Assembly (NCBI RefSeq): GCF_029962835.1
Contig: NC_080586.1
Location: 63,992,001 to 64,056,000 of the forward strand
Direction of reading: 5' to 3'
Length of the DNA stretch: 64,000 bases
DNA from: Magnolia sinica
Taxonomy: Eukaryota; Streptophyta; Magnoliopsida; Magnoliales; Magnoliaceae
In this document: piece after piece, positions 28,113 to 51,357 of the stretch
Layout of the letters: each line of letters opens with the position of its first letter
How positions within the stretch are numbered: the first letter of the stretch is position 1
Translations under genes and position numbers: made by a program
The notes under the pieces: generated by a model
What the model was told of the DNA's origin: nothing
Database searches by the model: none
The model's input: only the letters and a program-made list of their open reading frames with translations

Positions 28113-28116
28113 GAAG

Positions 28117-28130
28117 TTGGTATCAGAGCA
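28117..28130 (+). other. Primer-binding site of RE2
   Basis: TTGGTATCAGAGCA lies 4 bp after the LTR end and is a perfect match to the plant initiator Met-tRNA type site. It fixes the LTR end and plus orientation. Confidence 0.9.
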
Positions 28131-28287
28131 TAACTCGGGAATAACCAAAAACAACATTACATGTCTGCTATGAATGATTTAAGTCCTAAGTTCGGATAGC
28201 CTAGCGATCTTTTATTACCGACCCTTAACGAGCGTGCCTTCGAGAGTTTTCAAAGTTGATAGGCACCTTCGCTCTTTCCTGTAGGAT

Positions 28288-29560
28288 ATGGCGCGCAGGA
28301 GAGTGACCCGATCGACTCCCGCACCACCATCTGAGACTCCGACTCCACCACCTGCGGCTCCCGCACTACCACCTACGATTCCTGCCCCACCACCCGAGAT
28401 CCCTATTGCCCCGCCTGAGGATGCCACCCATCTGCCAGGGATTCATGCTGCCCAGCCTATGGGCGCAGCTCCTCCACCAGAGACTAGTGCGGAGCCGACC
28501 GTATCTGTGAGTGCTTCCCAGTTACAGCAGATGCTGCAGGCAGGGCAGACCCCCAGTCGTTTCTCCAGCACAGGCAGAGCAGGAGCGCTCGAGTGCCCTC
28601 CTTCGAGAGTTCCGACGCCTCGATCCCCCGCATTTCCAGGGTGAGCCAGACCCGACCGTGGCCGAGAGATGGCGCGCTGACGTAGAGAAGATATTTGAGA
28701 CGATGGGATGCGCGACCGAGCGGCGAGTCCGATTAGCCGTATTTCTTCTCCATGGTGAGGCTGAGCACTGGTGGATGACAGCAGTCTCCAGCAGGCACTG
28801 ATTTTGTATGGACTTGGGAGGATTTTGTGGATCGGTTTGACCGACAGTATTTTCCCGATCACATCCGACGTCAGCGAGCATTGGAGTTTGAGGCCTTGGT
28901 GCAGGGCGATATGACAGTGGCTCAGTATGCCGCTCGTTTTGTAGCACTGTCCAGATTTGCACCATATTTAGTGGATGATGAGGAGCGGAGAGCCCGCCGA
29001 TTCGAGGCCGGCTTACGTTACGGTCTTCGAGGCCGTGTTATTGGGCATGAGCTCCCTACCTTCGAGGAAGTGGTGCGGAAGGCCCAGATTTTTGAGGCTG
29101 AGTGGGACGGTTCTCAGTCTGATCGCGGTCAGAGGAGAGACCGGAAGAGGCAGGCTCCTTCCAGTGATACCCAGCAGGGTCGACCACCGCAGAGGCGCAC
29201 AGGTCGCCCAGCCTTTCGAGCACCAGCAGCACCCCCAGCACCTCCAGCACCACCTCCGAGACAGTTCTCTGGCACTTGTTTTAGGTGCGGTGCGACAGGA
29301 CACCGTATGTGGGAGTGTCCTCGCCCCCAGCAGCAGCAGCAGAGAGGTCCACAGCAGCCTCCACCACCGCAGCAGCAGAGACCCCCACAGCAGCAGCAGA
29401 GGCCCCCACAGCAGCAGCGACAGCAGCCCCCACCACCGAGGCCACCTCAGCAGCAGCATCAGCACCAGCCTCCGAGGCCGCAGCAGCAGAGGCAGCAGTT
29501 TCGACCGCCTCAGCGACCCCAGCAGCAGCAGCACGCTCCCAGCCGGCTCAGGCTCGATTC
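28288..29560 (+). pseudogene. gag: RE2 gag (frameshifted)
   Basis: The structural capsid polyprotein that would form the virus-like particle. The start is MARRRVTRSTP, followed by a Pro-rich N-terminus. Three reading frames carry successive parts: 28288 to ~28560, ~28530-28801 with LREFRRLDPPHFQGEPDP and GEAEHWW, and ~28803-29550 with the gag core (YFPDHIRRQRALEF, FEAGLRYGLRGR). The last frame has a CCHC zinc knuckle at 29277-29318 (C-x2-C-x4-H-x4-[15 protein letters not shown]) that would bind RNA. A Pro/Gln-rich CAG-type tract (29325-29545) follows, and the frame shifts again before protease. In this lineage gag and pol are normally one ORF, so at least three indels have broken it. Confidence 0.88.
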
Positions 29561-31108
29561 TATGCGGCCCAGCAGGATCCTCAGTCATCTGGAGGAGTCG
29601 TTGAGGGTATACTTCCTGTATCTGCATGCATTGCACGTGTGTTGTTTGATTCTGGTGCATCGCATTCTTTCGTGGCCGAGAGTTTTTGCCGATTGACTGG
29701 TTTACCGTTGGAGTCTGCTCATGAGGGGTTGACTCCCTTGGGGAAGACTGCAGTGTTGGGCCGATTTTGCTTGTCTTGCCCCGTTTTGGTTGGGGATATG
29801 TTTTTGCCTGCCGACCTGTTTGCTTTGCCTATGTCCGAGTTCGATGTCATCCTGGGCATGGATTGGCTTGCCGAGTATCACGCCATATTGGATTGTTCCG
29901 CGAGGACAGTCACGTTTTGTATACCTGGCTTGCCGCAGTTCCAGTTCATTGCTGAGCCCAGAGGAGAGCCGTTGTCTTGTTTGATGTCTTGTGCCATAGA
30001 GGATCCCTTAGTGGTGAGCGTCGACCAGTTGCCTGTGGTTTGCGATTTTCCCGATGTGTTTCAGGAGATTCCGGGATTACCGCCTCGTCGACTCACCGAG
30101 TTTCAGATTGATCTCGTGCCCGGTACTGCGCCTATTTCAAAGGCCCCATATCGTATGGCACCATTGGAGTTGCGGGAACTGCAGAAGCAGTTGGACGAGT
30201 TGCGCGAGTTAGGCTTTATCCGTCCGAGCAGTTCGCCGTGGGGAGCACCGGTACTCTTCGTGAAGAAGAAGGATGGCTCGTTGAGGCTCTGCGTAGATTA
30301 TCGCGAGCTCAACAAGGTCACGATCAAGAACAAGTACCCGCTCCCGAGGATTGATGATTTGTTCGATCAGCTGCAGGGTGCACAGTTCTTTTCGAAGATT
30401 GACTTGCGTTCCGGTTATCATCAGATTCGGGTCCGAGAGGAGGACATTCCGAAGACAGCATTCAGGACGCGTTATGGTCATTTCGAGTTTCAGGTCATGT
30501 CCTTCGGACTGACCAATGCGCCAGCAGTATTCATGCAGTTGATGAACGAGGTCTTCCGTCCGTATCTCGATCAGTTTGTTGTAGTCTTCATCGACGACAT
30601 TCTGATTTATTCGAGGACTCGTGAGGAGCATGAGCAGCATTTGGAGGTTACATTGCAGACCCTCCGCGCACACCAGTTGTATGCGAAGCTGGAGAAGTGC
30701 GAGTTTTGGCAGGAGGAGGTGAAGTTCCTCGGTCACGTGGTGACGAGGGAGGGTGTCGCAGTGGACCCCTCGAAGGTTGAGGCAGTGCGTCAGTGGGACC
30801 AGCCCACGACTGTGTCCGAGATCCGTAGTTTCCTTGGTTTAGCGGGCTACTATCGGCGTTTCATTGAGGGCTTCTCTCGTATTGCAGCCCCGTTGACCAG
30901 GTTGACCCGGAAGGGCGCAGAGTTTATTTGGAGTGACGCCTGCGAGCGAGCATTTATGGAGTTAAAGGACCGTCTGACGTCCGCTCCTGTCCTCACTCTT
31001 CCCTCTGGGAGTGACGGATTTATTGTATTTACCGATGCCTCGCATATTGGTTTGGGTGCTGTCCTGATGCAGCACGGTAGACCTGTAGCCTTCGCGTCTC
31101 GCCAGCTC
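29560..31108 (+). pseudogene. pol: RE2 pol, N-terminal part: protease, reverse transcriptase, start of RNase H
   Basis: One open frame continues from about 29560 to the inversion junction. The aspartic protease has its active site DSGAS at 29648. RT motifs follow: [46 protein letters not shown] and the catalytic FIDDIL, with aspartates at 30593-30598. RNase H begins with [13 protein letters not shown] (first catalytic Asp at 31034) and breaks off after VAFASRQL. The sequence is of the Tekay/Del chromovirus type. The frame happens to stay open across the junction into RE3 integrase until a stop at 31322-31324, so a long chimeric ORF exists but is not a natural polyprotein. The remainder of this gene lies inverted at 45720-47157. 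Confidence 0.92.
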
Positions 31109-31855
31109 AACATCCTTTCTCGATTCGGAACGCCTCGAGCCATCATTAGTGATGGGGGCTCACACTTTTGTAATAAACCATTTGAGAGCTTAATGAAGAA
31201 ATACGGTATCTCTCATAGGATGAGCACCCCATACCACCCACAGACAAGTGGGCAAGCTGAGATTTTTAATAGGAAAATTAAACACATTTTGGAGACAACA
31301 ATTAACCCTGATCGTAAGGATTAGTCAATCCGATTGACCAATGCCTTATGGGCATACCGTACTGCCTTTAAAACCCCTATTGGAATGTCTCCCTTTAGAC
31401 TTGTCTATGGGAAAGCTTGTCACTTGCCTGTGGAGCTAGAACATAAAACGTACTGGGCAATCAAAAATCTTAATTTCAATCTGGACAACGCTGGCTCGCT
31501 ACGCAAACTTCAATTGAATGAACTTGAGGAAATCCGGAATGATACGTACGATAATTCGAGAATTTACAAGGACAAGATGAAAGCATTTCATGACCAACAC
31601 ATTTTGCGAAAATCATTCACGCCTGGTCAGAAGGTCCTTTTGTACAATTCTCGATTACATCTCTTTCCGGGTAAGCTTCGATCTCGTTGGACCGGCCCTT
31701 ACATTGTTGTTACTGTTTTTTCTCATGGGGCCGTTGAGATAAGAGATCCCGACAATGGCAAGGAGTTTAAAGTCAATGGACATCGATTGAAACCATTTGT
31801 CGAGAAATTTGATTCAGAGGACATGTCCATGCCCCTGACTACTCCTGTTTACTAG
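31109..31855 (+). pseudogene. pol: RE3 integrase, C-terminal part
   Basis: This encodes the second half of an Athila-type integrase, the enzyme that joins cDNA ends to host DNA. Seen in order: [17 protein letters not shown] (second catalytic Asp), [13 protein letters not shown] (catalytic Glu), [20 protein letters not shown], and the C-terminal [12 protein letters not shown] / GHRLKPF segment, ending at a stop after TTPVY (31853-31855). A TAG at 31322-31324 replaces the Trp normally found after RKD, so the gene is dead even apart from the inversion. The zinc-binding N-terminus and first catalytic Asp are missing; they were lost at the breakpoint. Confidence 0.9.
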
Positions 31856-33147
31856 GATTGATCTCCTAGTCTGATAGAGGTATAGGTAGGTTTATCGCTT
31901 TCATAGGACTAGGGTAGTTGCTTTATTTGTCTGGCTGAAGACGGTAAACTTAGCGCTCCTGGGAGGCAACCCAACTCTTCATTTCTTTTCGTTCTTGTCA
32001 TTAGTTAGTTCAATGTTTGTAGGTAACATTACTGCAAACCCTCACGAGACTACAACTCATCCACTAGGGGTAACTTAGGGGTTTAAAGGCTTGTTGCATA
32101 TGCTAAATGCAATCGAGAGCACCTACGAAAGTGGTATAGGTAGGATTTTTTTTATTATTTATTTTTATGTTACCTTCTCTTTCGTGCTGACCGACGCCCA
32201 TGCTGCGATCTCTTGGAAAGTGTCTCTCGATTCATCATCCAGGTACTATCTTCCCATCACTTCATATTTACGTTTCGTTGTCCCAAGTGCATTGCATGCT
32301 CATATCTTTTACATTGAGGACAATGTAGATTTTAGGTTGGGGGTGGGAGATTAGGTGACCTAATCAGGATTTTCTTGGTCTTGAGCAAAAAATTGTGTAA
32401 ATTTTTAATTTTTCTGGACTTTCTTGTGAACTCGAAGGGATTTTTGACAGCCATCTAGGGCACTTGGAATTTCAAGATACATGATGTTGGAAATTTAAGA
32501 CGCTTGGATTCAGTATCTGTTGGATTGCTTAATTAAGTTTGAATTGTTAATCCAGAATTAGACAATTGTAAACATTGATTGAGTCATGATTTCACAAACG
32601 CATCTCGCTTACACATTAAGATTCAGTTCGACATTGAAGGGATAACTTGGTGATCAGTAAACATGAAAGGAACCAACCTGAGAAATTGAAAGGATTGAGC
32701 GACTGGTCTTCACCATGGGTCTGCTCCCTATAGGTGAGGATTCGTTTACCCTCCTTGGCTTTACCTTTAAAAAAAAAGTTGACATAGTGTGAAAATCATC
32801 AAAAGCTGGAAGAATGAATCAAGTTTCGGTTTAGGTGTTGGATATCATGAATTTTTTGGGTTACCGATGATATCTTGAAATAGAAAAGTGAATTTTAATA
32901 GTGTTAAGCCGAGATTACACGATACACTCATGGAACTCAATATTTAGAATTGTCTAATTAATGGATTAATATTTGAGCCTGATTATGAAGTTTACCGTGA
33001 GCTTGATTTCAGGAGGAAGCAATGCCAACATTCATTAATCTTAGAATTCTAGTATCTGAATTGTTTTTTCATAAATCTCTTGAGTTTATAAAAATTGTCT
33101 TGTAATTCTCAAATTATTTTCCGCATACCTTGCTCGGGACTAGCAAG
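31856..33147 (+). other. RE3 3' untranslated region
   Basis: No ORF of note. Several blocks (32230-32400, with TTTACATTGAGGACAATGTA; 32570-32700; 32820-33060) recur in RE6 at 60470-61400, showing that RE3 and RE6 are related. No envelope-like ORF is present. Confidence 0.7.
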
Positions 33148-33164
33148 ATGCTGGTTGGGGGTTG
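33148..33164 (+). other. Polypurine tract of RE3
   Basis: The purine-rich GATGCTGGTTGGGGGTTG immediately precedes the LTR start TGTTGAGGGTC. The same place in RE6 reads GCTAGTTGAGAATTG. Confidence 0.65.
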
Positions 33165-35369
33165 TGTTGAGGGTCAAATATTGCATATCAGACCTAGTTA
33201 TTACCTGGATTTATGAACATGGTACCGTTTAATAACCCATTTTAATCATGTTTGTGTTGCAAGGTGGAATTGCGAGCTGGGACTGGATCGGGATGCTAAA
33301 AGCACGGATTTAACATTCAGAATGCATCAAGGCAAGGGACGGACTCTAGGGGACCAAGATCTACGAAATTATACGCCAGGGATCCGCGAAAATCGAGAAA
33401 CTGAAGCTCAAGCGGCCTGAAAGTCAGCCAGAATGCAAGATCACTGGGTTTCCATCATCTGTTCGACTCAAAACTTCATACATGGCCTGAGGGCCATAAA
33501 TTAACCGTACACGTAAAATTTCATCCATTGGATCCCTCTAGAAGTGGCCCAACGGACAGATCAGCCCCTTTAATCGTTATGTGGGGCCCGCCTGATATCT
33601 GGATATGCTTCAAACTTGGTCTGGACGGTTTAAATGATATGACAGAATGGATGGACGGAACGGATTTCATGAATATATCAAAGTGGACCCTATGCTGCAG
33701 TGCGTGTATACCACGTACCGGAAGACTCGCTGTGCACCAAGAAATTGAAGACGGTCAACAAGGCATTGGCCGATTACAACTCAAAAATGGCAAAGTCGTT
33801 CGCTGTTTGCAACAAAGAGTTGCGGTTGAAGTTAGGTGGGCCACCATCATCGTAGATATCTCTAATCTGGACCGTCCATTTGTTTCAGAAGGTCAAACCG
33901 ACCGTACACATGAGGTTTTTCCAAACCTATGCTCGCATACATAGGAAAATACCGTTCAAACGCAGGTTGAATGGCAATATGGAAAATCAGGTGGGCCGCT
34001 TCAGCCTCAATCCAAAACCGACCAGATCTAAACGGTTTTTTGAGTAGAATGTAGTGGACGTTGTGGATTCCTCGAACCAGCAATGAAGTGGGCCCCACCA
34101 GCAGTACAGCGTCTGGACGTGCGTTACCTCTATTCGCGCGATCCGAAAAATCCGGGACGATGTGGCCCACCCCTGTTGATCAGATGGTTGATCCGAGCCA
34201 TCTAGTAGGAGCGCAGGTCAGCCATGATCCTAGCTATGTCGCCGGAATTTCAAGCTGAAGGGATCAATAATCAAAAACTTTAGCCGCAGCTTGGTGCGTT
34301 TGCGCAAGAAATCCCAAAGTTTGCAAACTGGCTGCGAAACGATCTGGTTGCAGCCATTCCGCATCGTCTTACGCACTCCCAGCCGATGGAGGTCGGAACC
34401 ACCATATAAGCAAGGGAGAGAGAGAGAGAACAAGGGTCTTGGATGGAGGAAAGGCTTGGTCGGGACAGGGAGGAAGGAGAGACCTGCACGTGAGCGAGGC
34501 TTGGGGCTAGAAATTATAAGGATCGGTTTGGTTTTTTTTTGAAGGAAGCTGGATGTGGAAGGAGGCAGAGGCTGGGCTTGAACGTCAAGATAGGGAGAAA
34601 AAAAGGAAAGTTTTTTTTTCCTATTTGCTGGCCTATTATTTTCTTTCTGTTCTTTCTTTCTCTCATGACTTCTAAGGTTATTAGCCTAATCATGCTCGGC
34701 TAAATCTCTTAGCTGGGGCTAAAAGGGGAAGCTTGTGGCGTGATAGGACTGATTCTATGCCTTTAATTTATGCTAGACTGATTGATGTTGATGTTAGTTC
34801 AAATAAGAGGAATATTTTCAGTTGGTTTTAATGGTTTGTTGTGACTGAAATTACAATAGATCTGCGATGGCTTTGAGTATTTCTCCCTCCTTTTTATGAC
34901 GTCAGGAAGTCCTGTTGTTCACCATCGTCTCATGGGCATGGTTGGATGGCGGTATCCTTCCTAATCTTCATGCATTGTTGAGTGGTTGGTAATTAGTTTA
35001 ATTCTGTTGTTCACCATCGTCTCATGGGCATAGTTTGATGATGGAATCTATTCTAATTCATTTATCTTTTATCTCTTTAAAACTATATCAAAAGAAGTTT
35101 AGTTTAATTAACATGGTGATGGCATAAGATCTCCCTGATCTCTACAAGTGGATCCTCTGAATCCCCAGTTTCCCTTCCTCTGAATTCCTTAAGTTTAGAT
35201 TAATCTCTCACCATTATTCATCAATTTACATTAGATTTAGAGTACATCTTTTTGCTAGTTCTATATCTAATTAGTTTCAGATCATGTACAAGTTTCAGCC
35301 CCTGTGGATTCAACCTCGGTCTTACCGAGTTTATTACTACATCACAACCCTATACTTAGGGAGTGAACA
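33165..35369 (+). repeat. 3' LTR of RE3 (complete)
   Basis: A 2205-bp LTR, TGTTGAGGGTC...GGGAGTGAACA. It is matched by the solo LTR 8363-10471, the truncated 5' LTR 50432-51352 and the RE6 fragment 61451-62018. A TATA candidate ATATAAG is at 34402-34410, just before a GAGA tract. Within it, two ~35-bp direct repeats (GTTGTTCACCATCGTCTCAT) start near 34913 and 35006. Confidence 0.92.
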
Positions 35370-35374
35370 ATATA

Positions 35375-36645
35375 TTATATGACCTAAAATAGATAGTGGC
35401 CCTGGGTGGCTCACTAGCTAAAGGAGCAGTCCTGATCGCAGGATTGGACCATAAGTAGTCATCGGATTGACAATAAGTGGCAATCAAGGGCCATGTTTCA
35501 GCTGATATGGCCCACCTAAGACTTGGATTGGCTTCATTCCTTGGACTAGGCCGTTATGCAATCCAAAAAAACTGATGAACGGCGTGGATTCACTAGAACC
35601 ATCATAGTAGACATCACATGAGGAGCATGTGTACATGGTTGGGGTGCACCCGAGGTGCACTACGCCACAAACACGGTCTGACGAGCGCTGACCCGCGCTC
35701 GTCCGAAAGAGGAATAGGTTTCCCTCCTTCCTTTCTTTTTTTAAATTTTCATTAGGCCACGAACAGAGCCTATTCTGAATGAGTTATCACCCACCATCAG
35801 CAATCTCTTGGTTGATCCAAACCGTCCATCTTGTAGAAGGCCCGAAGACGCTGAAAAACATGGTGATCCACCTGCTGGAGTACACCTACACGCACACAAG
35901 GATCGATGCAAACAGGGCATGAAAACACATTGTTTTCCAAAAATGGAAAACGTCTTGCTGGCTGCCAACCTGGCGATCCGTGTACGCCCTCAGCCTCGAA
36001 TCTCAGCCTTTGGAACGAGCATATCTCAGCCATCCATTGCTGATTCGCATGGATTGAAAACCAATGCAAGAAAACCACTGTTTGGCCCACGGTTTTGAGA
36101 AAACGGAACAGTGGGATTCAATCCGGGTCGTGCACTCCTCATCCGACGGTGATGGTAGAGCTTAGGGAAACTATAAATGGGGGAGGATCGAACAGCATTT
36201 GATTTATTTGTTGCTCATGACCCTTTAACGAAAACTTAGCGCCCCTTCCAAAAATCAAACCCACCCGCCACACAGGTTTGAAGCTTCGAAACCAGTGGTT
36301 GGGAAGCATGTTGTGATCAAGATCAGTCGATCCTACGATGCTGATCGGAGGAAGGATCATCAGATGTGGATCTGCCATTAACGGCTGACCCATCTTCTCC
36401 ACCTGACTGCGCTGACTCAGTCCGAGTCTAAGCCGAGTCTGGGTTCGGTTGGGCCCTCTGGAACGTTGAATCAAGGCGGGTGAAAGAAAAACAGAAAGAA
36501 AAGAAGAAGGGAAGGAAGAGAGTAGGAGAAAGGAAGTGTTGGGTGGGCGGCTGCCGCACCAACCCGACCCAGTCGAGTTGAGCGCGACTCAGGCCCTGGC
36601 TCGGTCCAGATTATTGCTGGATATTCCAGCATTTTGATTTTGATA

Positions 36646-36676
<31 letters not shown>

Positions 36677-39592
36677 GAGAGGAAGGCAGAGGAAGAAAGA
36701 AAGAAAAGAAAAAAAAAAAAAAACAGAGAAGAGGGAGAGGGACAGTTGCTGTCCCAACCCGACTCAGCCGGACTCCCGCACCAGAACCAGGCGCTACTAG
36801 CCCACCTGCTGCTGCTGTTGGGTTTGATTCGAGCCTGAGGAGTTGCTGGATGAAGACCCATGCCGTCATCCACAGGTAACCGTCCAAACGCACCTGAGAT
36901 TGAAATCTCTGTGGGCCAGACTCTGTATTGCAGCACTCTCAGTTGGGCTGTGGGAATGCGGAAAGCAGGCCTTCAATGGGCTTTCAATGTTGCTGAAAAC
37001 CTCCTTCAGCTGGCCCACTATCTAGACAGAAAGCAAGCTGAAATCTGGCCATGCATTGGGCCATGATGTGGGTCGAAACTAGCCTCCCAGCAGAGGCCCT
37101 GGGCCAGGTCGAAACTAGCTGTGATGTGGGCCAAATGCAGCCCTTAGTCTGGACCGCAATCTGGGCCTAGGTCACCACTAGATTAGGCTATGTGCTGGGC
37201 TGATATCAGCCCAGGTCCAGGCCAAACCGCATCATAGGCCTGGGTCGAATCTGTGCTGATCCCAGCCACATGTTTGGGCCGAGCCAGCCACCTCCTGGGA
37301 TGCTTTTGGACCATGGATCTGGGCAGCAATGTGCAGCCAAATCCTGGGCCCCATCATGGGGTTGGTTGGGAGCCAATCCGTCCCATATATGGGGTTGGTT
37401 TTGAGCCCACCAGCAAACGCATACAACCCATCTCTCGGGCTGTGTAGATATTGTTGTGGCTGAACCAGAAACGAACTACCCGGCCTCGTTTTTCCTCGTG
37501 GTGTATTAAAACAGCCGGGCCAGGACAAGCCTAGCCTAACTCTTGGACACTGATGTATATCACAAGCCAGCTCAAGACTTGCTATTGGACAGTTTCAGGT
37601 CCAGTCCTGGCCACCTTGTTGGGCCACAATTGATGGGCCTGACCACCTTGATGTGGGCCCAATTTCTGTGTCTTTGGGCCCTTACGATTTCGAGCATTCA
37701 CAATAATTAAAATGCATATCCATTAACAATTATCTATACAAATAATAGTTATTAAGGACATTAATAATAATAATAATGATGATGATGATAATGTCATTAT
37801 TAAATCTTGATGCCTTGTTTTGCCACTCTCAAATGTTATTATTAATAGTAGGTCAATCATCATAACAATTGTTATTACTAAGTTAGTCAATATAAATAAT
37901 AACAACAAGGTACACCAACTAGGGTTTAAAGTCCTAAACCTAGGAACTCCAAACCCTAAGTTAATACCCTAACCCTAAATAGTGTGTAAGCTTGGGTCTA
38001 CAACTTTGCAATTGATAGTAGGAATTGATTCTAAGGAAGCACGCATTTTTAGCGATGGTGCAGGTGGTTCAAACATAAGGTGAGGACTTACCCTTTGAGC
38101 TTCCCACTCGATTTCATCAATCTAGATATAGATGATAGCATGATTCCCTTAATTGAATTTCTTACTTTACTATTGAATATGCTAACTTGTGGTATAGTTA
38201 ATTCATGTGTTGGGTAATAAACGTTTCTTTTAAATTATAACATGCATGAATGGTTCAATGATAACATGCTATTCTTTATTGTACATGTATTAATTTATTT
38301 ATATGCTACCACTTGTGCTTGAATGATGAATTGAATGGAACTTACCTTGGACTTATGATCCTGCGGTCCACATTTGCCTTACACGGCTTGAATATCACAT
38401 TTGCCTTTGTGGCTTGGATGGGTCATTGGTGTCATTTATGGCTTATTGGTTGTATTTACACATATGTTGTTTCTTAGCCGTCTTGCGGAGTTTAGTCGTA
38501 CCATGATTTTCAAGTGTAGCTGAAGTTCGTCTATCGATTTTCTAGCCATCTTGCGGTATTCACATACGATATGATTTTCGTGTGGTCTAGAGTTGTATAT
38601 TTATTTTCCTAGTCATCTTGCGGAGTTCAGTCGTACCATAATTTTCGGGTGGAGCTAAAGTTTGTTTATCGATTTTTTAGCCATCTTGCGGTGTTCATGT
38701 ACGATATGATTTTCGGGTGGTATAGAGTTGTAAGTTTGTTTTCCTAGCCATCTTTCGGCGTTCAGTCGTACCATGATTTTTGGGTGGAGTTGAGGTTCGT
38801 TTATCGATTTTCTAGCCATCTTGCGGAGTTCATGTACGACATGATTTTCGGATGGTCTAGAGTTTGTGTTGTTTGTCTCTTCATCTGCGGTGTCAGTCGT
38901 ACCATGATTTTCGAGTGAAGCTGAAGTTTGCTTATCGATTTTCTAGCCATCTTGCGGAGTTCACGTACATATGCGATTCTCGGGTGTAACAGAAAGTCGT
39001 ATAGTTGATTGTTTGGTTATTTGGACATGTTTCCTTGTATTGCGACTGCTATTATATTTTGTTTATGATGAAATTCAGTTGATTGGTTTGATTTTCTCAA
39101 TATGATGAAATGTCCTATTTAGTGTATCTAATTTCATGACTTGTAATCTATATTGGATATTGAATGATGAGTGCATAATCTAAGAGGGTGCTCCTCACTG
39201 CGATAGCCATTGACGCTATCACACCGTAACAGTTGATGCAGGTATACGGCGAGTCGATGCTATTCACTAGGTTGCTGGAGCAGATCGAGTAGCTAAGGAG
39301 CTAGGCGAGGTCCTTGCGGCCCACATTGATCTCCACTACTAGTTGATAGACTCATATTTTTACTTGCCTGAAATCTGTTATTTGAGATTATATAAGTCCT
39401 GTATGGGTGCCACATTTGGAAATTTGTAATGATCAGAATGTTTTTATTTAATGCATGGTTTATTCTAGCTTCGTTGCTGTTAACTCTGATTAATGACAAA
39501 CGGTTGAAATTTATACTAGATTTTATAGGCTAACACTCAGGTTTTTAAGAAACGGGTTATATACTCGGGTCCTGAAAACATAAGGCGTTACA
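35375..39592 (+). repeat. RE4 3' LTR, main part (separated from its start by RE3 and the inversion)
   Basis: The last ~1.6 kb (37990-39592), ending GGCGTTACA, matches the RE4 5' LTR at 54947-56608 in reverse complement. The upstream part (35375-37990) is assigned to the LTR by inference. RE3 inserted at an ATATA site whose other side (51358-52010) is the start of the RE4 3' LTR, so both sides were once continuous, giving an LTR of about 4.9 kb. A TATA candidate CTATAAAT is near 36171. GAGA/poly(A)-rich DNA at 36480-36730 and GGGCC-rich DNA at 37020-37680 carry no genes. Confidence 0.65.
38474..38995 (+). repeat. Tandem repeat in RE4 LTR (~67-bp monomers in ~135-bp dimers)
   Basis: Alternating monomers share CTAGCCATCTTGCGGAGTTC. 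One type continues ATGTACGATATGATTTTCGG and the other AGTCGTACCATGATTTTCGG. They give a higher-order period of about 135 bp. The same array is in the 5' LTR (55560-56215), where the period shows as a 45-residue repeat in one frame. Confidence 0.75.
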
Positions 39593-39599
39593 CATATAC

Positions 39600-40239
39600 T
39601 TAGATCTTGACCCTGAAGATCCTGTACCTCGATCAGAATTCATGCCTCTCATAATCAGTGCATCGGAAGATGTCTCCGTGTCGCCGTTTAGCTTTCTCAT
39701 GACCTTTCCTTAAAGGGTCGAGATAACGGTGTCGACACTTAGGGTTTTATTTCTGATGCACATTATGTCCTTGAATGACTCATACGATGCTGGAAGAGAA
39801 TTTAATAACATACATGTTTGTTCCTCATATTTGATCACTTCCTCCATATCTAGCAGTTTGCAAACAATTTATTAAAGTTGCTGACATGGGCCTCCAGATC
39901 TCCACCCTCTGTCATCTTAAAGTTATACCACTGTAACTTTAAGTGTAAGTGATTTTTAGAGGATTTTTTTGTATAGATATCCTCTAACTTCGCCCATAAA
40001 CTATCCGCAGTTTTCTCCCTTAAAATATTGTAGAGAACCTCATCTGTGAGACATAAACGGATCGAGGATAAGATTTTTTTATCAAGAGTATTCCAATTAT
40101 CATCAGTCATAGTAGACTTTTGCTCCTTAAAAGCATTATCTTCACCTTGCTTGGTGAAGGAATTGATTATCGTGATCTTCCATAACTTAAAGTTATTTTT
40201 CCTTGAGTACTTTTCAATATCATACATAGTGCTTTCCAT
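39600..40239 (-). pseudogene. gag: RE5 copia gag (UBN2-type), truncated
   Basis: The start chosen is the ATG at 40239 (MESTMYDIEKYSRKNNFKLW), as copia gags usually begin just after the primer site. It is followed by LSSIRLCLTDEVLYNI, LWAKLEDIYTKKSSKNHL and ITVSNFNKLF-like spacing typical of the UBN2 domain. An open frame runs to 39850. Similarity continues in decayed form to about 39600 (EEQTCMLLNSLPASYESF). The zinc knuckle and all of pol are absent because the element is cut by RE4. Confidence 0.85.
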
Positions 40240-40280
40240 TGATGTTAATCCTATAGATCCAAATTTGTACCCCAACGATA

Positions 40281-40292
40281 GCTCTAATACCA
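40281..40292 (-). other. Primer-binding site of RE5
   Basis: On the minus strand TGGTATTAGAGC lies 2 bp after the LTR end ...AATCCCAACA, matching the initiator Met-tRNA type with one change. Confidence 0.75.
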
Positions 40293-40294
40293 CT

Positions 40295-40821
40295 TGTTGG
40301 GATTTGTTCTACAGAATCACAAAGAGATGGATCTAGGATAACAATTCAAGAGCACCAGACAAACACAAGAGAACACAAAGATTTAACGTGGAAAACCCCT
40401 TCGGGAAAAAATCACGGCACAAAGCGACATAAATCCACTATGAAAGCATAAATTACAAAGAGAGAGGACTTACCTGATTCGAACAACCTCGAATCTCACC
40501 CTTGCTACACCTTTTGAAACCCTAGAACCCCTTTTAGAAACCCTTTTGGAATACTTTAGAAGGCCTTAGGATGATTTAGAAAGGCCCTAGGAACTTCTAT
40601 TTGTAGTTTAGGAAACCCCAATTTCCCACCGACTTAGAATAGTTAGAAAACCGCCTTAAATTTACGCAGTCCGTGTGCTATCTGCGTAACCTTCAACGAG
40701 TCGAAGCAGATCTTCGATGCGTCGAAGATCTCAAAAATTTCGATATACTTTGTTACTGGACTTTGAGCCGAACTTTCTTGGGCTAGTCGAACTTTTCAAG
40801 ATTTAAGTCATCTTTTTAACA
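40295..40821 (-). repeat. LTR of RE5 (copia type)
   Basis: On the minus strand it starts near TGTTAAAAAGATG and ends ACAAATCCCAACA. It carries the phrase GCCGTGATTTTTTCCCGAAG...TTTTCCACGTTAAATC typical of copia R/U5 regions. Two near-palindromes, CTTCGACGCATCGAAG and CTTCGACTCGTTGAAG, sit in U3 and resemble the RE7 array. The outer end is approximate. Confidence 0.65.
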
Positions 40822-41126
40822 ACACCATGCAAAAACACAAAGTTTTTATTCAACCCATCAAAAGACTTCGAGAACATATAACTTATAGTGGACCTTCTAC
40901 ACAACTTAGTCCTTAAGTTGTGTGTGGACCTCTAAACAATCAGTGCTCGGCATAAAAAGTTCTATTACTAAAAGATGGGAGTTAGAGAATTACATTTCGC
41001 CCTTGACATGTGAGCCTCAAAAGCATTGTCAGGATAACCATTTATGTACACCACAACTATTGTGAGTCTCCTATTCATATCAAGGTTTGAGACACTTTAA
41101 AGAAAAAGAACCAATGACCAGTAATG
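40822..41126. other. Flank between RE5 and RE2, no gene seen
   Basis: No ORF or repeat recognised. It is the DNA that originally lay to the right of the RE2 insertion; its last 5 bp (41127-41131, TTTTG) are the RE2 target duplication in inverted form. Confidence 0.45.
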
Positions 41127-41131
41127 TTTTG

Positions 41132-43102
41132 TGTCACGCCCCAAACTCGGAAACCGGGCTCACAAAATTCCCGATCGCCGAATCTGGCGCCGACAGCCTC
41201 TCGTAGAACCCCATTCTTGGCTCCCAGCGCCCATTCGCCAGGTTCCGATCCTGGGATGCTACAAGGAGGATTTTTAACTTCAGTTTGATTCGTAATAAGC
41301 ATAACCAAAGGCATAACCCACAAACAACGACCAAAAACTCCATCACATTTCCACTATAATAAAAAACTTTACAGGTACAATGAGCATAAGGGAAATACAA
41401 TGAATATAGACCAAAACTCCAAAAGAAGATCAGCCACGCGTCCAAGCCTCAGCGCTGCTGCGATCCAACGTCACCTGCACGCAACGGTCGTGCATAAGCT
41501 TATAGAAAGCTTAGAGGGTGGTGAAAGTGTATGCTCAAGGTGATAATGTAGTCATGCAGTATCAGAGTAATGCGGAACATGCTGATGAATGCTAAGAATC
41601 CCATTAGCCGTACCAAGGCCATGCGGTGCAAAGAATGATGTCGGCCATACCAAGGCCATGCAATGCAAAATGCAAGTCAAGCATACAAATCCTCATCTAA
41701 GTCCACATGTCAATACGGCTCAAATCTGGAATATCACCGGGGTCTAGTACACTCCAAGCCAGATTGCCGCCCCATCGCGCGCAATAAGGTGAGTGGAAAA
41801 GACCTCACTATCCGCCTGCCAATATCGGGCTCGGCTCGTCAATAGCGGACCCATTCCTCGAGCTGGTCAGACTCAGCCTAGCATTGCCCCCTACTCTCGG
41901 GCGGGTAAGGCCGCACCCCCTTCCAACCGACCACGACACAGTGGAAAGCGCAACCGTCTGGTAATCGGCACCCAGCGCTCATGCACCCACTCGGTCAGAC
42001 GTTGGAGCAACCTCCTGGTACCATAAGGGTTTAGGGACTTTCACCCAGGGATATCTATCGCACCCCATGTAGAACAGTATTTCCGGTATCCAATCCTGCC
42101 AACCACGATGCGTCTGTGGAGGCTATGACCCTGATGTCGCTAGGGCGTAGAGTAACCATATCACACAATGCGAATGCATGAATCACACTATTCAGTCATG
42201 CAGCAATCCTGCGCGTATCGTGCGCTCATGTAGGCCAACACCCCCTATGCGGGAGTCCCTAAACAATCTACCCAAAGACTTATGCTATGATCAGTCATCT
42301 CTCATATCAAGCATACATATGATACATATGATCATGAATTATGGAATTTAAACATGCTATATAGGATGGATGACATGCATAACGAAGGTGGGCCCAGACG
42401 ACCTGCACATAACACGCATGGGCCCGCCAATGGGCCCTAGGGAAAGGCATAATGCGGACATTTAACCAACATTGTACTTGCAATGTGGACGTCAAACCAA
42501 CATTGCTCCCAAGGCACGATCATAAATCATGTCGGGATTGCACATTGCAATGGACCTTTGGTATATCCCATTGGGCCTTTAATACATCAAATGAGCCGTA
42601 TCATATGGCCTATATTCATTAAGTGGGCCGCACCAATGGGCCTTATGTACATTGCAATGGGCTATAACCCGGGGGCTTCAGAACATATCAAATAGGCCTA
42701 AGCTTATGGGCCTTACACGTGTCAAATGGGCCTCGACAATTGGGCTCCATATGTACATCAAATGGGTCTACTCACCTGGCCTTATATGAATCAAATGGGC
42801 CTCACCAATTGGGCCCCATGTACAAATCAAATGGGCCTCAACTCATTGGCCCCATTACGTCAAATGAACCTCGACCCATGGCCTCTAATACATTGGATGG
42901 GCCTCAACCCATGGGCCTTTTATATACATCAAAGTGGGCCTCAACCATGAGTCACAGGTACTGAGGTGGGCCTCAATCACGGGCCTCAACATTAGTAAAA
43001 AAATAAAAAAATAAAATAAAAATATATACATATAATATAGTATATAATATGTATATAGTATATAATATATATACATAATACATATATATAATATTATATG
43101 AA

Positions 43103-43156
<54 letters not shown>

Positions 43157-45222
43157 TCACAGTGGGCCCACACACTCATCACAGTGGGCCCACACATTCA
43201 TCACAGCGGCTCCACGTCCACCGTCCAGGCGGACGGTGAGACTAAAACACTTACATCACTGTGGGCTCCATGTGGGGCCCACCATAATGTTTATTTTCCA
43301 TCCAAACCATTGATGAGGTCAAGCAGACCTCGATGAAGGGTGACAAGATTTTTCACCCTGATCCAAAACTTCTGTGGACCCCAAAAGAGTTTCAAAGGTA
43401 AATGTTCAATCCCACTATTTCACACAGTGTGGGCCACCTGAGTCTTGGATCAGGCTGATTTTTGGGGTGGGCCCATGTCAGGTGGGGCCCATAGCTACAG
43501 CCGTGGGAGGCTGTACGTCCGCCAGCCCGGGCGCTGGGGCGCTGGCAGCGCTGCTGCGCTCCTGACACAGCAGCAGCGGCTGCTGTTGTCTTTTTTTTTT
43601 TTTTTTTTTGATTTCCCTTTGCTTGAGGATTTTACCGGTGGGGTCCACATCCAAGCAATCCACCCCATCCAATGGCCCTCCATGGCTCTAAACAAACAAA
43701 ACAAGCCCAATATTGGGCCTGTTTCGGCGTATAAAAGCAATAGGGGAGGTTTTAATGGTGAAGACCACCATTTGCTACGGTATGGCCCGCCCGAAGGTCT
43801 GATTGGTCCCATATTTCGGCTCAACGCCTAAAAGATGGTTGGGAAGGGAATGGATGGCATGGATTGAAAACATGCATCAAGGTGGGGCCTACATGAGTGG
43901 ACCATTCCAAGCTTAGGGAAAAAGCTTGTAATTGTGTTTCTCCCATCAGACGTCCGGCGTCCCTGGACGCTGGACTTGGCGTGTAGGTTGGAGGTGGGCC
44001 CTGCTTAGGTGGGCCACCAAGTGATGGGTGGCATGGAACCACACATATAAGGTGGGCCCCACTTATAAAATGGTTTGGAATGAATACCTACCTCATGGTG
44101 GGTCCATTCAAGTGGGCCACATAATCTCATTATTACAAAAATAAAATAAATAAATAAATAAGATAAAAGGGAGAGAGATGGAGAGTGAGACCGTGTGATG
44201 GAGGGACCCCGGCACTATGGGCCCTCCCTTGCACTAAATCATACATCAAGTGGGTCCCGTTTTATGTGGCCCATTAAAATTAAATCCAACGGTGGAGATC
44301 CCTTCTCCACCAAATTAAACGGTCTAGATGACCCTAAATATACAAGAAGGTAAACATCATGATGGGGTCCATGGAGGATGGCCCCGTCATGGAATGATCA
44401 TGATGATCCAAGTGGGCCATCGGCCACATCTTAGGGTCCAAAGCGAGATCCAAACCATTGATCGGTTGGCCTCACTTGGCCCATCTTAAAAACATCAAAA
44501 CTATCCTATCCAAACACCCACCGCTAGATCTTCTTGCTCCCTTGGCTTCCTTAGCTCCTTGTACTACCCTTTGATGGAGGAAGATGGGAAATGGATGGTT
44601 GAGATGAGAGATGAAGGGGTGGGAAAGGTGGACCTCACAAATGAAGTTTTCTCACCATGGGGGACTCATACGTATGGTGCTCTCTCTTGGATTTGGATTT
44701 TTGAAAAAAATGAATAAGAGAGATAGTTGTAAAGGGAGGGAGAGAGAGAGAAAGAGATGGGTGATGGAGTGATGGGGGATGGTTTGGGTTGAAAATTGTA
44801 AAAAGGTGTATGGTTGTTGTTGAAATTTGGAAAAGAGGAGTGGTGAGGTGGAAAGAATGGTGGACTTTTGTAAAAGGTGGTGATGGGTTGTTGTACTTGA
44901 GGTATGGGATGCTTTAATGGTTGATTGATGGGACTAATTGTAGAGATTCCCTCGAAATCCGCAACGCGCGGTGTTTCTTCGGAATAAACGCTGATCGGCA
45001 TCTTCTTGCCTGGGTATCGGTTCGGTGCGCAAGTCACGGCGTTGGAACCGCGGCGACGACGCGGTCGCTATGATATAACTTTCAGACCAAGCCGACGTCG
45101 GTGCGCAGGACCTGGCTTAGGATCGTGCGCAAACACCGAATACGGTGCGAAGGTTGCCGGAATTTGACCGGAAGGATCGCGGAAGCTAACGGAACAGTGT
45201 GGATTAGGACACGGGTCTTACA
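41132..45222 (-). repeat. 3' LTR of RE2
   Basis: A 4091-bp reverse-complement copy of 24014-28112. In the 320 bp compared at the 3' end I count three substitutions and one 1-bp indel. A clustered difference lies around 43478-43510, and the microsatellite (43110-43157) differs in length. Now 13 kb from its partner in inverted orientation. Confidence 0.93.
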
Positions 45223-45240
45223 GCTCTCCCCTCCTAATAG
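45223..45240 (-). other. Polypurine tract of RE2
   Basis: On the minus strand AGGAGGGGAGAGC directly precedes the LTR start TGTAAGACC, with the usual CGAGGACGAAATTTC phrase upstream. Confidence 0.8.
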
Positions 45241-45352
45241 AAATTTCGTCCTCGAAATTTACACAATCACCGCAACTAGGCAGAATTCAAGAGGGAGAAG
45301 AAACATAACATCAATATATAAAATCAGAGATAACATACAACATGCAACACAA

Positions 45353-45700
45353 TCAATCATCAAAAAGATGGGGATAACGCTCTCGAATCTCAACCTCACG
45401 CTCCCAAGAAGCCTCCTCAACAGAATGGTGACCCCACTGAACCTTCACCAACGGAATGACCTTGGTCCGGAGGACCTGCTCCTTCCGATCAAGGATACGG
45501 ACTGGCTGCTCAATATAGGAAGCGTCCTCACGAACCTCTAACCGCCAATCGATAACAGGAACGATGTCCACCCACACTTCCTCAACATGGAGACATGAAA
45601 ACGTTGTGGACACTAGACAACTGAGATGACACAGCAAGCCGATAGGCCATAGCGCCAATGCGCTAAGTGATCTCTAAAGGTCCTATAAATCTCGGGACAA
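45353..45700 (-). pseudogene. pol: RE2 integrase tail with chromodomain (frameshifted)
   Basis: The last part of pol. One frame shows YIEQPVRILDRKEQVL followed by VKVQWGHHSVEEASWE and a stop after HLFDD. This is the chromodomain-like tail of Tekay/Del chromoviruses, thought to direct integration to particular chromatin. The link to the integrase core is broken by the TGA at about 45717 (CGA in relatives), another stop near 45676 and at least one frameshift around 45600. Confidence 0.8.
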
Positions 45701-45719
45701 GCTTGCCCTTCGCCCCAAA

Positions 45720-47157
45720 TCAAACTACGTCCTTCATGGGCGAGACCTTGAGATACACATGGTCCCCTACATCAAACTCCAAGGGACAACGCCGGCGATT
45801 AGCAAAACTCTTCTGCCGGCTCTGAGCTGTGCGCATCCTCTGCCTGATGATATCAATAGCCTCTGACGTCTCCTGCACAAGCTCGGGACCTAAGAGACGA
45901 CGCTCTCCCACCTCGGCCCAACAACTCGGTGATCTGCATGGTCTGCCATATAGTGCCTCAAAAGGAGCCATGCCGATGGTCGCCTGATAGCTGTTATTGT
46001 ATGAAAACTCAGCCAATCGCAGATGCTCATCCCAGCTACCCCCGAAATCAATCGCGCAGGCCCGAAGCATATCCTCAAGGATCTGGTTGACCCTCTCGGT
46101 CTGGCCATCGGTCTGCGGATGGTATGCGGTGCTGAGCTGCAAATCAGAACCCATCGCTCTCTGGAAGCTCCCCCAAAACTGAGACGTGAACCTCGGGTCT
46201 CGGTCAGAAATGATCGAGACTGGAACGCCATGCAGTCTCACAATATCCTCAATGAATAATCTCGCAAGCCGGTCCAAAGGCCAAGTCGCACGTATCGCAA
46301 TAAAATGTGCCGACTTCGTTAGTCGATCAATGACAACCCAGATGGCGTCATGACCGCGTTGAGTCCTCGGCAAGCCCATAATGAAATCTGTCGACACGTG
46401 CTCCCACTTCCACATCGGGACACTCAACGGCTGCAATAGACCAGGGGGTCTCTGATGATCGGCCTTGACACGCTGGCATGTGTCACACTCGGCCACAAAA
46501 CTGGCGATCTGGCGCTTCATCCCCGCCCAAAAATACTGTCGCCTCATGTCATGGTACATCTTCGTCGAGCCAGGATGGATAGAAAACCGCGATCGATGTG
46601 CCTCGGTCATAAGATCTCGGCGTAGCTCAGGAATATCCGGGACACATAATCGGCCTCTGAAGCGAAGTCCACCATCTGTACCAATCTGCCAATCTGTCTG
46701 ACTCTCAGATGCTGCCTCTGCTCGGTAATCCTGTAACGACTCGTCTGCCTGCTGAGCCTCGATCACCCTTGCGACAAGAGAGGGTTGAATCGACAGGCTC
46801 GATAACTGCACAATAGAAGACTGCAAGCCAAACTCAAAGTCGTACTCTGCTACATCCTCGAGCATTCGCCACTCCTGAATCATCATATGCGCCACCAGGC
46901 CTCGTGGCTGACGGCTAAGGGCATCCGCCACCACGTTCGCCTTACCCGGGTGGTACTGGAGATCGAAATCATAGTCCTTCAGGAGTTCCATCCAACGCCT
47001 CTGCCTCATATTCAACTCAGACTGAGAGAAGAGGTACTTCAAGCTCTTATGATCAGAAAAGAGCTCGAACCTAACCCCATAGAGATAGTGTCTCCACACC
47101 TTTAGTGCGAAAACAACTGCAGCCAACTCTAAATCATGCGTGGGGTAGTTCAGCTCA
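45720..47157 (-). pseudogene. pol: RE2 pol, C-terminal part: RNase H remainder and integrase core
   Basis: An open frame of about 480 codons of RE2 origin. RNase H continues with [31 protein letters not shown] (catalytic Asp) and [12 protein letters not shown]. Integrase shows the H-x-H ... CDTCQRV zinc site, then the catalytic triad STDFIMGLP / [11 protein letters not shown] / [13 protein letters not shown] (D, D, E), and [12 protein letters not shown]. It ends at a TGA after SPMKDVV, a likely methylated-CpG change of CGA to TGA. Its N-terminal ~19 codons in the open frame are RE3-derived DNA read out of frame. Confidence 0.93.
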
Positions 47158-47586
47158 TCGTTGAAAGGTGGTAGGGGCATTACATAGTCCGAATGGCATC
47201 CTTCGATAGGCAAAGGTGCCGTAGGGACATGTAAATGTGGTCTTTTCCTGGTCTTCAGGGGCTATCTCTATCTGGTTGTAGCCCGAATACCCGTCAAGGA
47301 AACTGTAATAGGAATGACCAGCTAACCTTTCCAGGATCTGATCAATAAATGGTAAAGGAAAGTGGTCTTTCCTCGTGACGATATTCAACTTCCTGTAGTC
47401 AATACACATTCTCCAACCAGTAGTAACTCTAGTTGGCACGAGTTCATTATTGGCATTGACTACGATGGTGAGTCCGGACTTCTTAGGGACCACTTGAGTT
47501 GGACTCACCCATTGACTATCAGATATAGGGTATATGATGCCTACGTCCAATAGTTTAAGAACCTCGGCCTTAACCACTTCCTTCAT
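47158..47586 (-). pseudogene. pol: RE3 reverse transcriptase, N-terminal part
   Basis: Athila-type RT up to the palm. Motifs: VVKAEVLKLLDVGIIYPISD, GWRMCIDYRKLN, YSFLDGYSGYNQI (first catalytic Asp), and [17 protein letters not shown], where it stops. The box with the two catalytic Asp, the thumb, connection and RNase H are all gone. The junction is directly after FQR, where RE2 RNase H begins in another frame. Separated from the protease frame by a stop and a shift at 47586-47605. Confidence 0.92.
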
Positions 47587-47604
47587 GTTTGGATTTAGTC
47601 TACG

Positions 47605-48681
47605 TTATGGTTGCCGAGCGGTTTTTGCATTATCCTCAAGATATATGCGGTGAGTACAAATCGAAGGATCGATTCTCTTGAGGTCCGCTATCGTCCATCC
47701 CAGGGCTCCTTTATGCTCAATGAGAGTAGATATGAGCATACTCTCCTGTTCTTTCTCTAGGTAGGCAGAGATCACCACCGGGTATGTCTCATCTTGACCT
47801 AAATAAGCATATTTTAAATCAGAGGGCAAAGGTTTTAGGTCAAGCTTCGACGGCTTGAGGTTAGACGGTAGAGGCACTACATCGGTTTGTGGCAATTCTT
47901 CAAATTGTGGCCTCCACCGGTTAACTTCAAGTACCGGTGCAGTATCAAGCAAGGCGCACGTCTCCCTAATCATGTCATCATCAAAATCATGGGAGTGGGT
48001 CAGACACGTCTCTAGATGGTCAGAGGATAAGGTTAGAGGTGTCGTATCTTCCACTAAAGAGTCAATCATGTTAATGTCGTGGACATCGTCATCCTCCTCT
48101 AAGTTTCTGCCGTTATTTAAAAAGTTTGACTCCAATGTCATATTCCTAAAAGACATAGTCATGACACTATTCCTGCAATTGATAATTGCATTTGAAGTGG
48201 CAAGGAATGGGCGGCCAAAAATGACGGGGATCTGAGTGCTTATGTTATTGATGGGTTCGGTGTCCAGGATGATAAAATTTACAGGGTAGTAAAATCTATC
48301 AACTTGGACCAACACATCCTCAATTATCCCTCTTGGTACACGAACAGAGCGATCAGCAAGTTGTAGTATGGTTAGGGTGGGTTTTAATTCACCCAAACCT
48401 AACTGTTTGTATACCGCGTAGAGAATCAGATTGACGCCCGCTCTTAGGTCAAGAAGTGCATGATCTATTCGATGGTCCCCAATTACACATAATATGGTTA
48501 GGGTACCGGGATCCTTTAATTTCTGTGGCACGTCTTGCTTTAGAATGGCACTCACTTTCTCGGTCAAGAAGATCTTCTTTTGAATACTCTGTCGTCGTTT
48601 GGTCGTGCATAAGTCTTTCAGGAATTTGGCATATGAAGGTATCTGTTTCACGACATCAAGTAGAGGAATGTTGACTTTCAC
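47605..48681 (-). pseudogene. pol: RE3 protease and linker
   Basis: An open 358-codon stretch of Athila type: PSYAKFLKDLCTTKRRQSIQ, CVIGDHRIDHALLDL, then the protease core with YKQLGLGELKPTLTILQLAD and IIEDVLVQVDRFYYPV. The active-site triplet reads DLRA where relatives have DLGA, a Gly-to-Arg change expected to inactivate it. A long acidic linker (LETCLTHSHDFDDDMIRETC) follows before RT. A similar but extended linker-like sequence forms the RE6 ORF at 57921-58976. Confidence 0.88.
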
Positions 48682-48973
48682 ATTTCAATACCTCTAGGAT
48701 ATCCTGAGAGTTAAAGAGAGATTTTTGTGAAACCAACCGTTGGGGGAATGGAGCAACTGGCTTCTCTAGAAGTTCCGGTTCTAATTTTTGTGGGGCATCA
48801 CTAAATCCATCATTGTTATCCTCTTTTGGTTCTTGAGACTTTTCGGGCCTAACCGAAAGAGTTTTATCAATGATTTTTCCACTCCTAAGAGTGGTGATGG
48901 ATTTAGCATGCCCCATCTGATTTGAAGAGCTGGGATCATTGATCTCGTACTGCGGTTTAGGATTGGGGAGAGG
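48682..48973 (-). pseudogene. RE3 gag-protease connecting region (out of frame)
   Basis: A minus-strand frame (48656-48916) contains MGHAKSITTLRSGKIIDKT, the usual Athila 'TLRSGK' segment between zinc knuckle and protease. It joins neighbouring segments only through frameshifts near 48680 and 48960. Confidence 0.7.
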
Positions 48974-50196
48974 TTATGCAGGAAGCATCCCCTTTTCTAT
49001 AACCGTCATACGAGAATCTATCTTTTGCATAAAATTTGCAATTTCCCGCATTGCCTGAGCCAGCTCTTGTATGGAATTTTGAACCGGTTCCTCTTGAGGT
49101 TTCACTTGATTTGGATTTTGATTGAAGAAACCTTGAGGGGTAGCCATTTGTCCATTTCTCCAACTAAAGTTTGGATGATTTTTCCAACCAGGATTGTACG
49201 TATTGGAGTTAGGTCCAGTAAAAGGTCTTTGATAGTTGTTTACGGCATTAGCTTGTTCATTCAATACTCCTCGAAAGGCGGGTATTGTAGGACAATTTTC
49301 AGTTGTATGAATGTTGCAATCACAGATGCCGCAAACAATTTCATTAACCCTATCCTTCTTTCCTTTCATGGCCTCAACTTTCCTTATGAGCGTAGTCACT
49401 TTACACTTGAGATCATCCTCCTCTTTCAAGAGATATAATCCACCTTTCTCCTTTAATTGAGTCGGCCTAGACGTGGTATTCGACTTTGGGTAATAGTCCC
49501 ATGATTGTGTTTTTCAGCAAGACTATCGAGGTAATCCCATATCTCGTCAACATCTTTATTAATGAACTCTCCATTACACATTATCTCGACCATTTGGCGC
49601 ATGGAAGATGTCAGTCCATCATAGAAAAAATTTGTAATGCGCCACATTTCAAATCCGTGTTGTGGGCATGAACTGACCAAATCTTTGAACCTTTCCCAAC
49701 ATTGGAAGAATGTTTCATCTTCCCTTTGGGCAAAGTTCATGATTGCTTTTCTGAGGGTAATCGTTTTATGATGTGGAAAGAATTTTTTTATGAATTCCCT
49801 CTGCATGTCGTTCCATGTGCCAATGGATCTAGGATGCAGTGAATGTAACCACGTCTTAGCTTTCTCTTTTAAGGAAAAAGGAAAGAGTTTCAGCCTAATT
49901 GTATCCTCAGATACATTAGGAAAAAGTAATGTAGCTATAATCTCATCGAACTCTTTCAAATGTAAATATGGACTTTTTGATTCAAGTCCATGGAATTTGG
50001 GAAGGAGTTGGATAACTCCTCAGTTGATATCCATTTGTCATGTGTTTTCAGGAAAAATCATGCATGAGGGCGTACTCACTCCTGCCGGTTGTAGATAATC
50101 TCGTAAAGTACGAGGCGGGGGTGCCTGATGCACCTCATTCTCATCTTGGGTATCCTCCACCCTGGGTGGAAGTAGAGGAGGTTGGTCTTCAGCCAT
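48974..50196 (-). pseudogene. gag: RE3 gag (broken)
   Basis: Capsid gene of an Athila-like element. The start is taken at the ATG at 50196 (MAEDQPPLLPPR), with an RTLRDYLQP segment soon after. The first frame stops at 50038-50040. The core resumes about 49960 as LKLFPFSLKEKAKTWLHSL, FFPHHKTITLRKAI, ERFKDLVSSCPQHGFEMW and DVDEIWDYLDSLAEKH. A further shift near 49440 leads to a CCHC-type knuckle (CGICDCNIHTTENC), then GWKNHPNFSWRN. At least two breaks make it non-functional. Confidence 0.88.
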
Positions 50197-50431
50197 AACT
50201 TCAGTTAACTCGGGAGATTTCGAGTGGTGTCTAGTCTTGCGATGGATAGTCAACCCCTCAACCAATCCTCCTTCAGTCAAGAGACATCGAGTGTTGTCAC
50301 AGGCCCACTTGGGCATGAAACACTCGCAGCCTTTAATCAAATTTTGAAACCTAATCCTAAGAAGGAAAAGAAAATCTAAAAAGAAAGAGAGGGAGAGTTG
50401 GAAAGAAATTACCAAAATTTGAAACCTAATT

Positions 50432-51352: not shown

Positions 51353-51357
51353 TATAT

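Follow-up and report, generated by a model that had tools for sequence, protein, structure and literature searches.

A probable 16-kb inversion that exchanged pol gene halves between two retrotransposons of Magnolia sinica

Chimeric retrotransposons and inversions in plant genomes

The nested long terminal repeat (LTR) retrotransposons of plants form layers that can be dated. A stretch of 64,000 nucleotides of the Magnolia sinica genome (hereafter the window; 63,992,001-64,056,000 of contig NC_080586.1) holds such a nest, in which an element termed RE3 lies inside an older one, RE4. As in other nests the layers are datable, but unlike usual nests this one appears to have been cut later, by an inversion whose far end lies in RE2, a younger element next to it. 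The arrangement very probably results from an inversion of 16.05 kb that broke RE2 in its RNase H region and the RE4-nested RE3 in its pol gene, and that was sealed by end joining.

Two described systems come closest. In maize centromere 10, chimeric elements with mismatched target-site duplications (TSDs) and a few identical bases at their junctions have been attributed to a proposed break repair, and inversions are reported within the same centromere (available part of PMC4806543). The Magnolia locus resembles these chimeras in that recombined LTR elements are recognised by mismatched TSDs and few identical junction bases, but the maize chimeras join CR1 elements, subtypes of one family, whereas here halves of two unrelated lineages would have been exchanged by inversion with both products kept (same part of PMC4806543). 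For repeat-rich plant DNA, inversion by paired-break repair is described, with short microhomology as the mark of end joining (accessible sections of PMC13393857). Both traits fit the present locus, but those sections deal with inversions in general, whereas here a single event is resolved base by base and one of its ends has lost 1.46 kb. Neither this event nor a reciprocal case of the same kind was found in a partial literature search, and the portion of PMC2686159 at hand yielded nothing on such an inversion. The inversion is ordinary in kind, a repair scar, and unusually well resolved.

Two chimeric pol genes explained by one flip

On the plus strand, pol of RE2 stops in RNase H, after VAFASRQL, and continues as RE3 integrase. 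The switch lies at 31108/31109, within a frame of 679 amino acids (29285-31324), and Pfam agrees: protease, reverse transcriptase (RT) and the start of RNase H are followed directly by the last part of the integrase core. On the minus strand RE3 RT ends in ...CNAPTTFQR at 47158, and RE2 RNase H begins at 47156. The RNase H half at junction 1 covers positions 5-41 of the 105-position RT_RNaseH profile, and that at junction 2 covers 43-105. Both switches had been proposed in a preliminary description of this DNA made from the letters alone, and both are seen at the sites given here. The parts of the locus are as follows.

24009-24013, plus: RE2 TSD, left copy CAAAA, equal to the five bases that follow the other RE2 LTR at its 3' end
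24014-28112, plus: RE2 5' LTR (TGTAA...TGACA), Kimura two-parameter distance (K2P) 0.0071 to its inverted partner
28113-31108, plus: RE2 5' body, with primer-binding site, gag (two frames), protease, RT and first part of RNase H
31109-31115, plus: junction 1, AACATCC of RE3, where most RE2-family copies have AAGATCC
31109-33164, plus: RE3 3' body, with end of integrase core, C-terminal part with in-frame stop, 3' untranslated part and G-rich tract before the LTR
33165-35369, plus: RE3 3' LTR (TGTTG...GAACA, 2205 bp)
35370-35374, plus: RE3 TSD ATATA, 3' copy
35375-39592, plus: part of RE4, the older host that RE3 entered, including the LTR-like repeat 38067-39592
41127-41131, minus: RE2 TSD, right copy CAAAA
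41132-45222, minus: RE2 3' LTR, inverted at present
45223-47158, minus: RE2 3' body, with rest of RNase H, zinc-binding and core integrase, weak chromodomain match and purine-rich tract
47156-47158, minus: junction 2, ATG common to RE3 (CGATG/TATGC, the slash marking the break) and RE2 (TCC/ATGAG)
47156-50429, minus: RE3 5' body, with gag, protease region and RT up to CNAPTTFQR
50430-51352, minus: RE3 5' LTR, first 923 bp only
51353-51357, minus: RE3 TSD ATATA, 5' copy
51358-56608, minus: other part of RE4, with gag 52975-53499, primer site just below 54947 and LTR-like repeat 54947-56608

Each hybrid now combines one LTR of RE2 with one of RE3, between unlike flanks (CAAAA with ATATA). The TSDs pair only across the junctions, CAAAA with CAAAA and ATATA with ATATA. 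When 31109-47157 is flipped, the LTR pairs of RE2 and RE3 become direct, the pol halves are united and the duplications are paired. A single inversion explains both chimeric pol genes, the inverted RE2 and RE3 LTR pairs, the cross-paired TSDs and the paralogous empty site of RE3 discussed below.

The preliminary description had likewise called for one inversion with both ends in pol genes, and its expectation that the flipped segment would give two collinear elements is borne out, halves and LTRs being in register. It erred on two details. The contents of the junctions were said to be exactly reciprocal, yet RE2 is complete to within 0-5 bp and RE3 is short by about 1.46 kb; and the elements were said to lie head to head, whereas RE2 (plus) and RE3 (minus) lie tail to tail, 3' end facing 3' end, before and after the inversion.

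The junctions compared with intact copies

All genomic comparisons were made within M. sinica (1.84 Gb in 127 contigs). With RE2 positions 30709-31108 as query, 40 matches were scored of 4349 candidates, and 30 loci were taken, including the window. All 29 other copies are collinear across both RE2 halves, RE2 resuming at 47158 after exactly 7 bases; the match extends for about 1 kb in 28 loci and for 251 bp only in the locus L034. The 7 bases read AAGATCC in 19 of the 29 and AAGGTCC in 8, with AAGGTTC in L037 and one copy (L017) outside the motif used. The comparison of proteins agrees and exceeds chance. Among 323 that were fetched, as the best 120 from each of three overlapping searches (7982, 1999 and 552 hits), the filter used picked out 63 that extend over both RE2 halves, with exactly 3 residues between the halves in 63/63.

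From the RE3 side, the stretch 30900-31400 was compared with the genome (40 matches scored of 8382 candidates), and all 39 scored matches other than the window begin exactly at 31109. Seven of these loci were fetched, and all seven read CAGCGATG/TATRC, then 1454-1459 bp, then AAAAGAA/AACATCC. The loss from RE3 is thus about 1.46 kb between the halves, comprising the end of RT, RNase H and the start of integrase. The lost stretch does not reappear in the window, where 7 mapped RE3 relatives matched, over this span, only the pol of RE2 itself, at roughly 24-49% identity. RE2 lost 5 bp at its breakpoint, or 0 if the 7-nucleotide near-match is counted. The bases shared are AA exactly at junction 1 (AASATCC with one mismatch, S being C or G; 6/7 loosely) and ATG at junction 2, and neither junction has inserted or duplicated bases.

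Queries of 90 bases across each junction found the window as the sole full match. At junction 1 (best 40 scored of 2049 candidates) 27 others matched the RE2 side only and 12 the RE3 side only; at junction 2 (best 40 of 1273) 39 matched the RE2 side only. The RE2 matches from the two junctions abut, with a gap of 0, in 19 of the 19 places common to both lists, among the rows given. These rows were 24 of the 27 RE2-side rows for junction 1 and 28 of the 39 rows for junction 2, the omitted ones having, by eye, no partner in the other list. A repeated family bearing the same chimeric junctions, raised beforehand as an outcome that would count against an inversion, was not found among the matches scored. 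The uniqueness of the junctions is strong, if not exhaustive, at the best 40 candidates for each. Proteins gave the same picture: none of the 323 is the same chimera when one half must be RE2-like at >=50% over at least 100 residues and the other RE3-like at >=55% over at least 40 residues, a looser first filter having flagged 16. A scan of viral_contigs with P0001 gave no match.

The empty site of RE3

The strongest test of the flip comes from the flanks of RE3, at present 16 kb apart and in opposite orientation. A search with the host sequence next to RE3 (query 35375-35874; 40 scored of 312 candidates) gave 15 loci including the window, and at 10 of the 14 others the 5' flank (from 51353 on the minus strand) adjoins the 3' flank (from 35370) on the same strand, with a spacing of -3 to 27 bases. 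As a control, the RE3 5' LTR plus gag stretch matched 0/14 of these host-repeat loci, and the RE3 LTR matched 1/14 (L053), off the empty site. The ten loci are paralogous empty sites of RE3, and both flanks come from one ancestral sequence.

Mechanism and alternative explanations

The process would begin with double-strand breaks, two or three in all: a single one in RE2 and, in RE3, either one with resection or two. The middle segment would then be turned round and its ends rejoined by end joining, aided by AA (or the near-match AASATCC) at junction 1 and by ATG at junction 2. End joining of breaks is the simplest account of the inversion. The RE3 loss probably belongs to the same event, because its end coincides with the breakpoint. 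A more specific version is doubtful but possible: if AASATCC annealed with its mismatch, the RE2 break would have healed without loss of a base, in a one-step exchange guided by 7 nucleotides of annealing, with 1.46 kb of RE3 excised simultaneously.

Both breakpoints fall in Ty3/gypsy-type pol genes in inverted orientation, as would be expected had ectopic homologous recombination between these genes turned the segment. However, the breakpoints are not equivalent, lying in RNase H of RE2 but running from RT to integrase in RE3. When the 1-kb stretches at both junctions are compared, the longest inverted match has 10 bp, no more than chance gives (9-11 in 20 shuffles), and a crossover does not delete, whereas RE3 lost 1.46 kb. 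Since there are only 0 to a few shared bases and no long inverted homology, end joining is preferred over pol-pol recombination, which is most improbable; the breakpoints do not lie inside long inverted repeats, and recombination between homologous pol genes was rejected.

Hybrid elements are also known from template switching during reverse transcription, which could in principle have supplied two hybrids for insertion. A hybrid inserted in this way would be bounded by like LTRs and a single TSD, whereas in each chimera here the two LTRs come from different elements, RE2 and RE3, and the flanking duplications do not match; this origin was rejected and is scarcely conceivable. The 2-3 bp microhomologies and the one-sided loss would suit either the same inversion made by replication template switching (fork stalling and template switching, FoSTeS, or microhomology-mediated break-induced replication, MMBIR) or a simple inversion that struck a copy of RE3 already lacking the 1.46 kb. 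The former is at odds with the absence of inserted or duplicated bases from both junctions, and the latter would need a deletion that ended exactly at the later breakpoint. Together these options are unlikely.

An assembly error, either a flip of the segment or the joining of chimeric reads, gains some plausibility from the repetition of both elements and from the two 4.1-kb RE2 LTRs, which are mutually inverted. However, there is no N in the window or in the next 20 kb on the right, and a flip at the RE2 LTRs would not put the junctions in pol. Two misjoins at non-homologous places would be needed, with TSD pairs, LTR pairs and the empty site still consistent. For M. sinica, whose published assembly comprises 1.84 Gb with chromosomes chr01-chr19, the published Oxford Nanopore Technologies (ONT) reads average 22 kb, with an N50 of 25 kb, at about 100x (consulted part of PMC10999834). 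Such an error is very unlikely.

Several points weigh against the inversion as set out here, or against its details. It is read from one assembled genome, and the bases that this RE2 copy would have had before the event are reconstructed from relatives. No empty site of RE2 appears among the matches listed: they scarcely reach into the 302 bases by its right flank and, the window excepted, start at query 283-330, away from RE2. The RE3 TSD, ATATA, sits in an AT-rich stretch and is weak taken alone, and 4 of the 14 host-repeat loci lack contiguous RE3 flanks, one having 221 bases between them and three no qualifying pair. Measured on proteins, the RE3 gap scatters: 37 of the 323 have both flanks, and the gap is 487 residues in 12 of these and 489 in 2, the other 23 ranging from -227 to 461, with five at exactly 171. 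These other gaps may reflect predicted introns or deleted copies, and the size of the RE3 loss was based on the seven genomic copies instead. The RE3 deletion might have preceded the inversion, then ending exactly at the later breakpoint. The 2-3 shared bases would fit classical as well as microhomology end joining.

Order of events, age and significance

The LTR divergences are 0.086 for RE4, 0.038 for RE3 and 0.007 for RE2, which gives the order RE4, RE3, RE2 and then the inversion. The inversion would have taken place after RE2 inserted and is younger than RE2; since the RE2 LTRs differ by only 0.7%, it is young. Assuming rates between 1.5e-9 and 1.3e-8 per site and year puts the age of RE2 at 2.4 to 0.3 million years. 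The inversion has no evident function, and both elements are split by it.

Nested repeats act here as a built-in ruler: LTR pairs, TSDs and paralogous empty sites jointly establish a small inversion, fix both breakpoints to the base, and show how much was lost and how old the event can be at most; a single genome suffices, with no outgroup. Applied genome-wide, the same test could yield a count of inversions of this sort, which species comparison hardly reveals in repeat-rich DNA. An annotated chimeric pol gene can be the scar of a repair rather than a new element family.

The elements and neighbouring repeats

RE2 may be described as a chromovirus-like Ty3/gypsy element with 4.1-kb LTRs. Both LTRs start with TGTAA and end with TGACA, and their alignment shows 29 substitutions over 4078 sites, besides 35 gap columns (K2P 0.0071). 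The sequence TGGTATCAGAGC, which we take to be a primer site of initiator-Met type, follows the 5' LTR, and a purine-rich tract precedes the 3' LTR. Minus-strand positions 47158 to 45720 hold the rest of RNase H and the zinc-binding and core integrase. With the halves in ancestral order, gag with a CCHC motif (20.0 bits, slightly under the cut-off of 20.8) is followed by protease, RT, RNase H and integrase, as in a plant chromovirus. The chromodomain match after integrase (PF00385) is weak, at E 4.7e-4 and 20.5 bits, under the cut-off of 25.1. The copy has further defects, since gag is spread over two frames.

The integrase end of RE3 runs from 31109 to 31855 on the plus strand, with an in-frame stop inside, and its gag, protease region and RT occupy 50429 down to 47158 of the minus strand, interrupted by stops. 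RE3 is presumably Athila-like (Ty3/gypsy), a name taken from its RT and integrase motifs and borne by no hit among the protein matches listed. Its 5' LTR, identical to the 3' LTR at 889 of 923 positions, breaks off sharply at 50430 after 923 of 2205 bp, and the LTR remainder and primer site are gone; this truncation is a separate deletion. A solo LTR of the same family, about 2.1 kb long, lies at 8363-10471 (minus) between perfect 5-bp duplications AACTC, and supports GAACA as the end of the RE3 3' LTR.

The LTR-like repeats of RE4 (38067-39592 and 54947-56608) have a K2P of 0.086 over 698 sites compared and become direct after the flip; tandem repeats of about 135 bp lie inside them at 38462-38997 and 55518-56205. 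The outer end of the RE4 repeat was not found, even with 20 kb more sequence on the right. At 56609-56868 (minus) an RE2-like LTR end (about 77%) adjoins the repeat, and perhaps accounts for the missing outer end. The other RE4 repeat ends at 39592 near a Copia-type gag (PF14223; 39850-40308, minus), next to which a repeat at about 40300-40824 (minus) is probably the 5' LTR of a Copia-type element.

Elsewhere, direct repeats at 1-3769 and 11832-15216 (3.4-3.8 kb, 91-92% alike, about 11.4-11.8 kb apart) are perhaps LTRs of another element cut by the window start. A frame of 354 amino acids at 57912-58976 (plus) has no Pfam match, and its part 58236-58505 resembles the M. sinica protein P0137 at 31%. 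From 60462 to 64000, and on to about 74444 in window numbering, lies an older RE3-like 3' end with its LTR, split by a further element, about 10.9 kb long, whose end repeats (62019-64056 and 70919-72934) are 96.8% alike.

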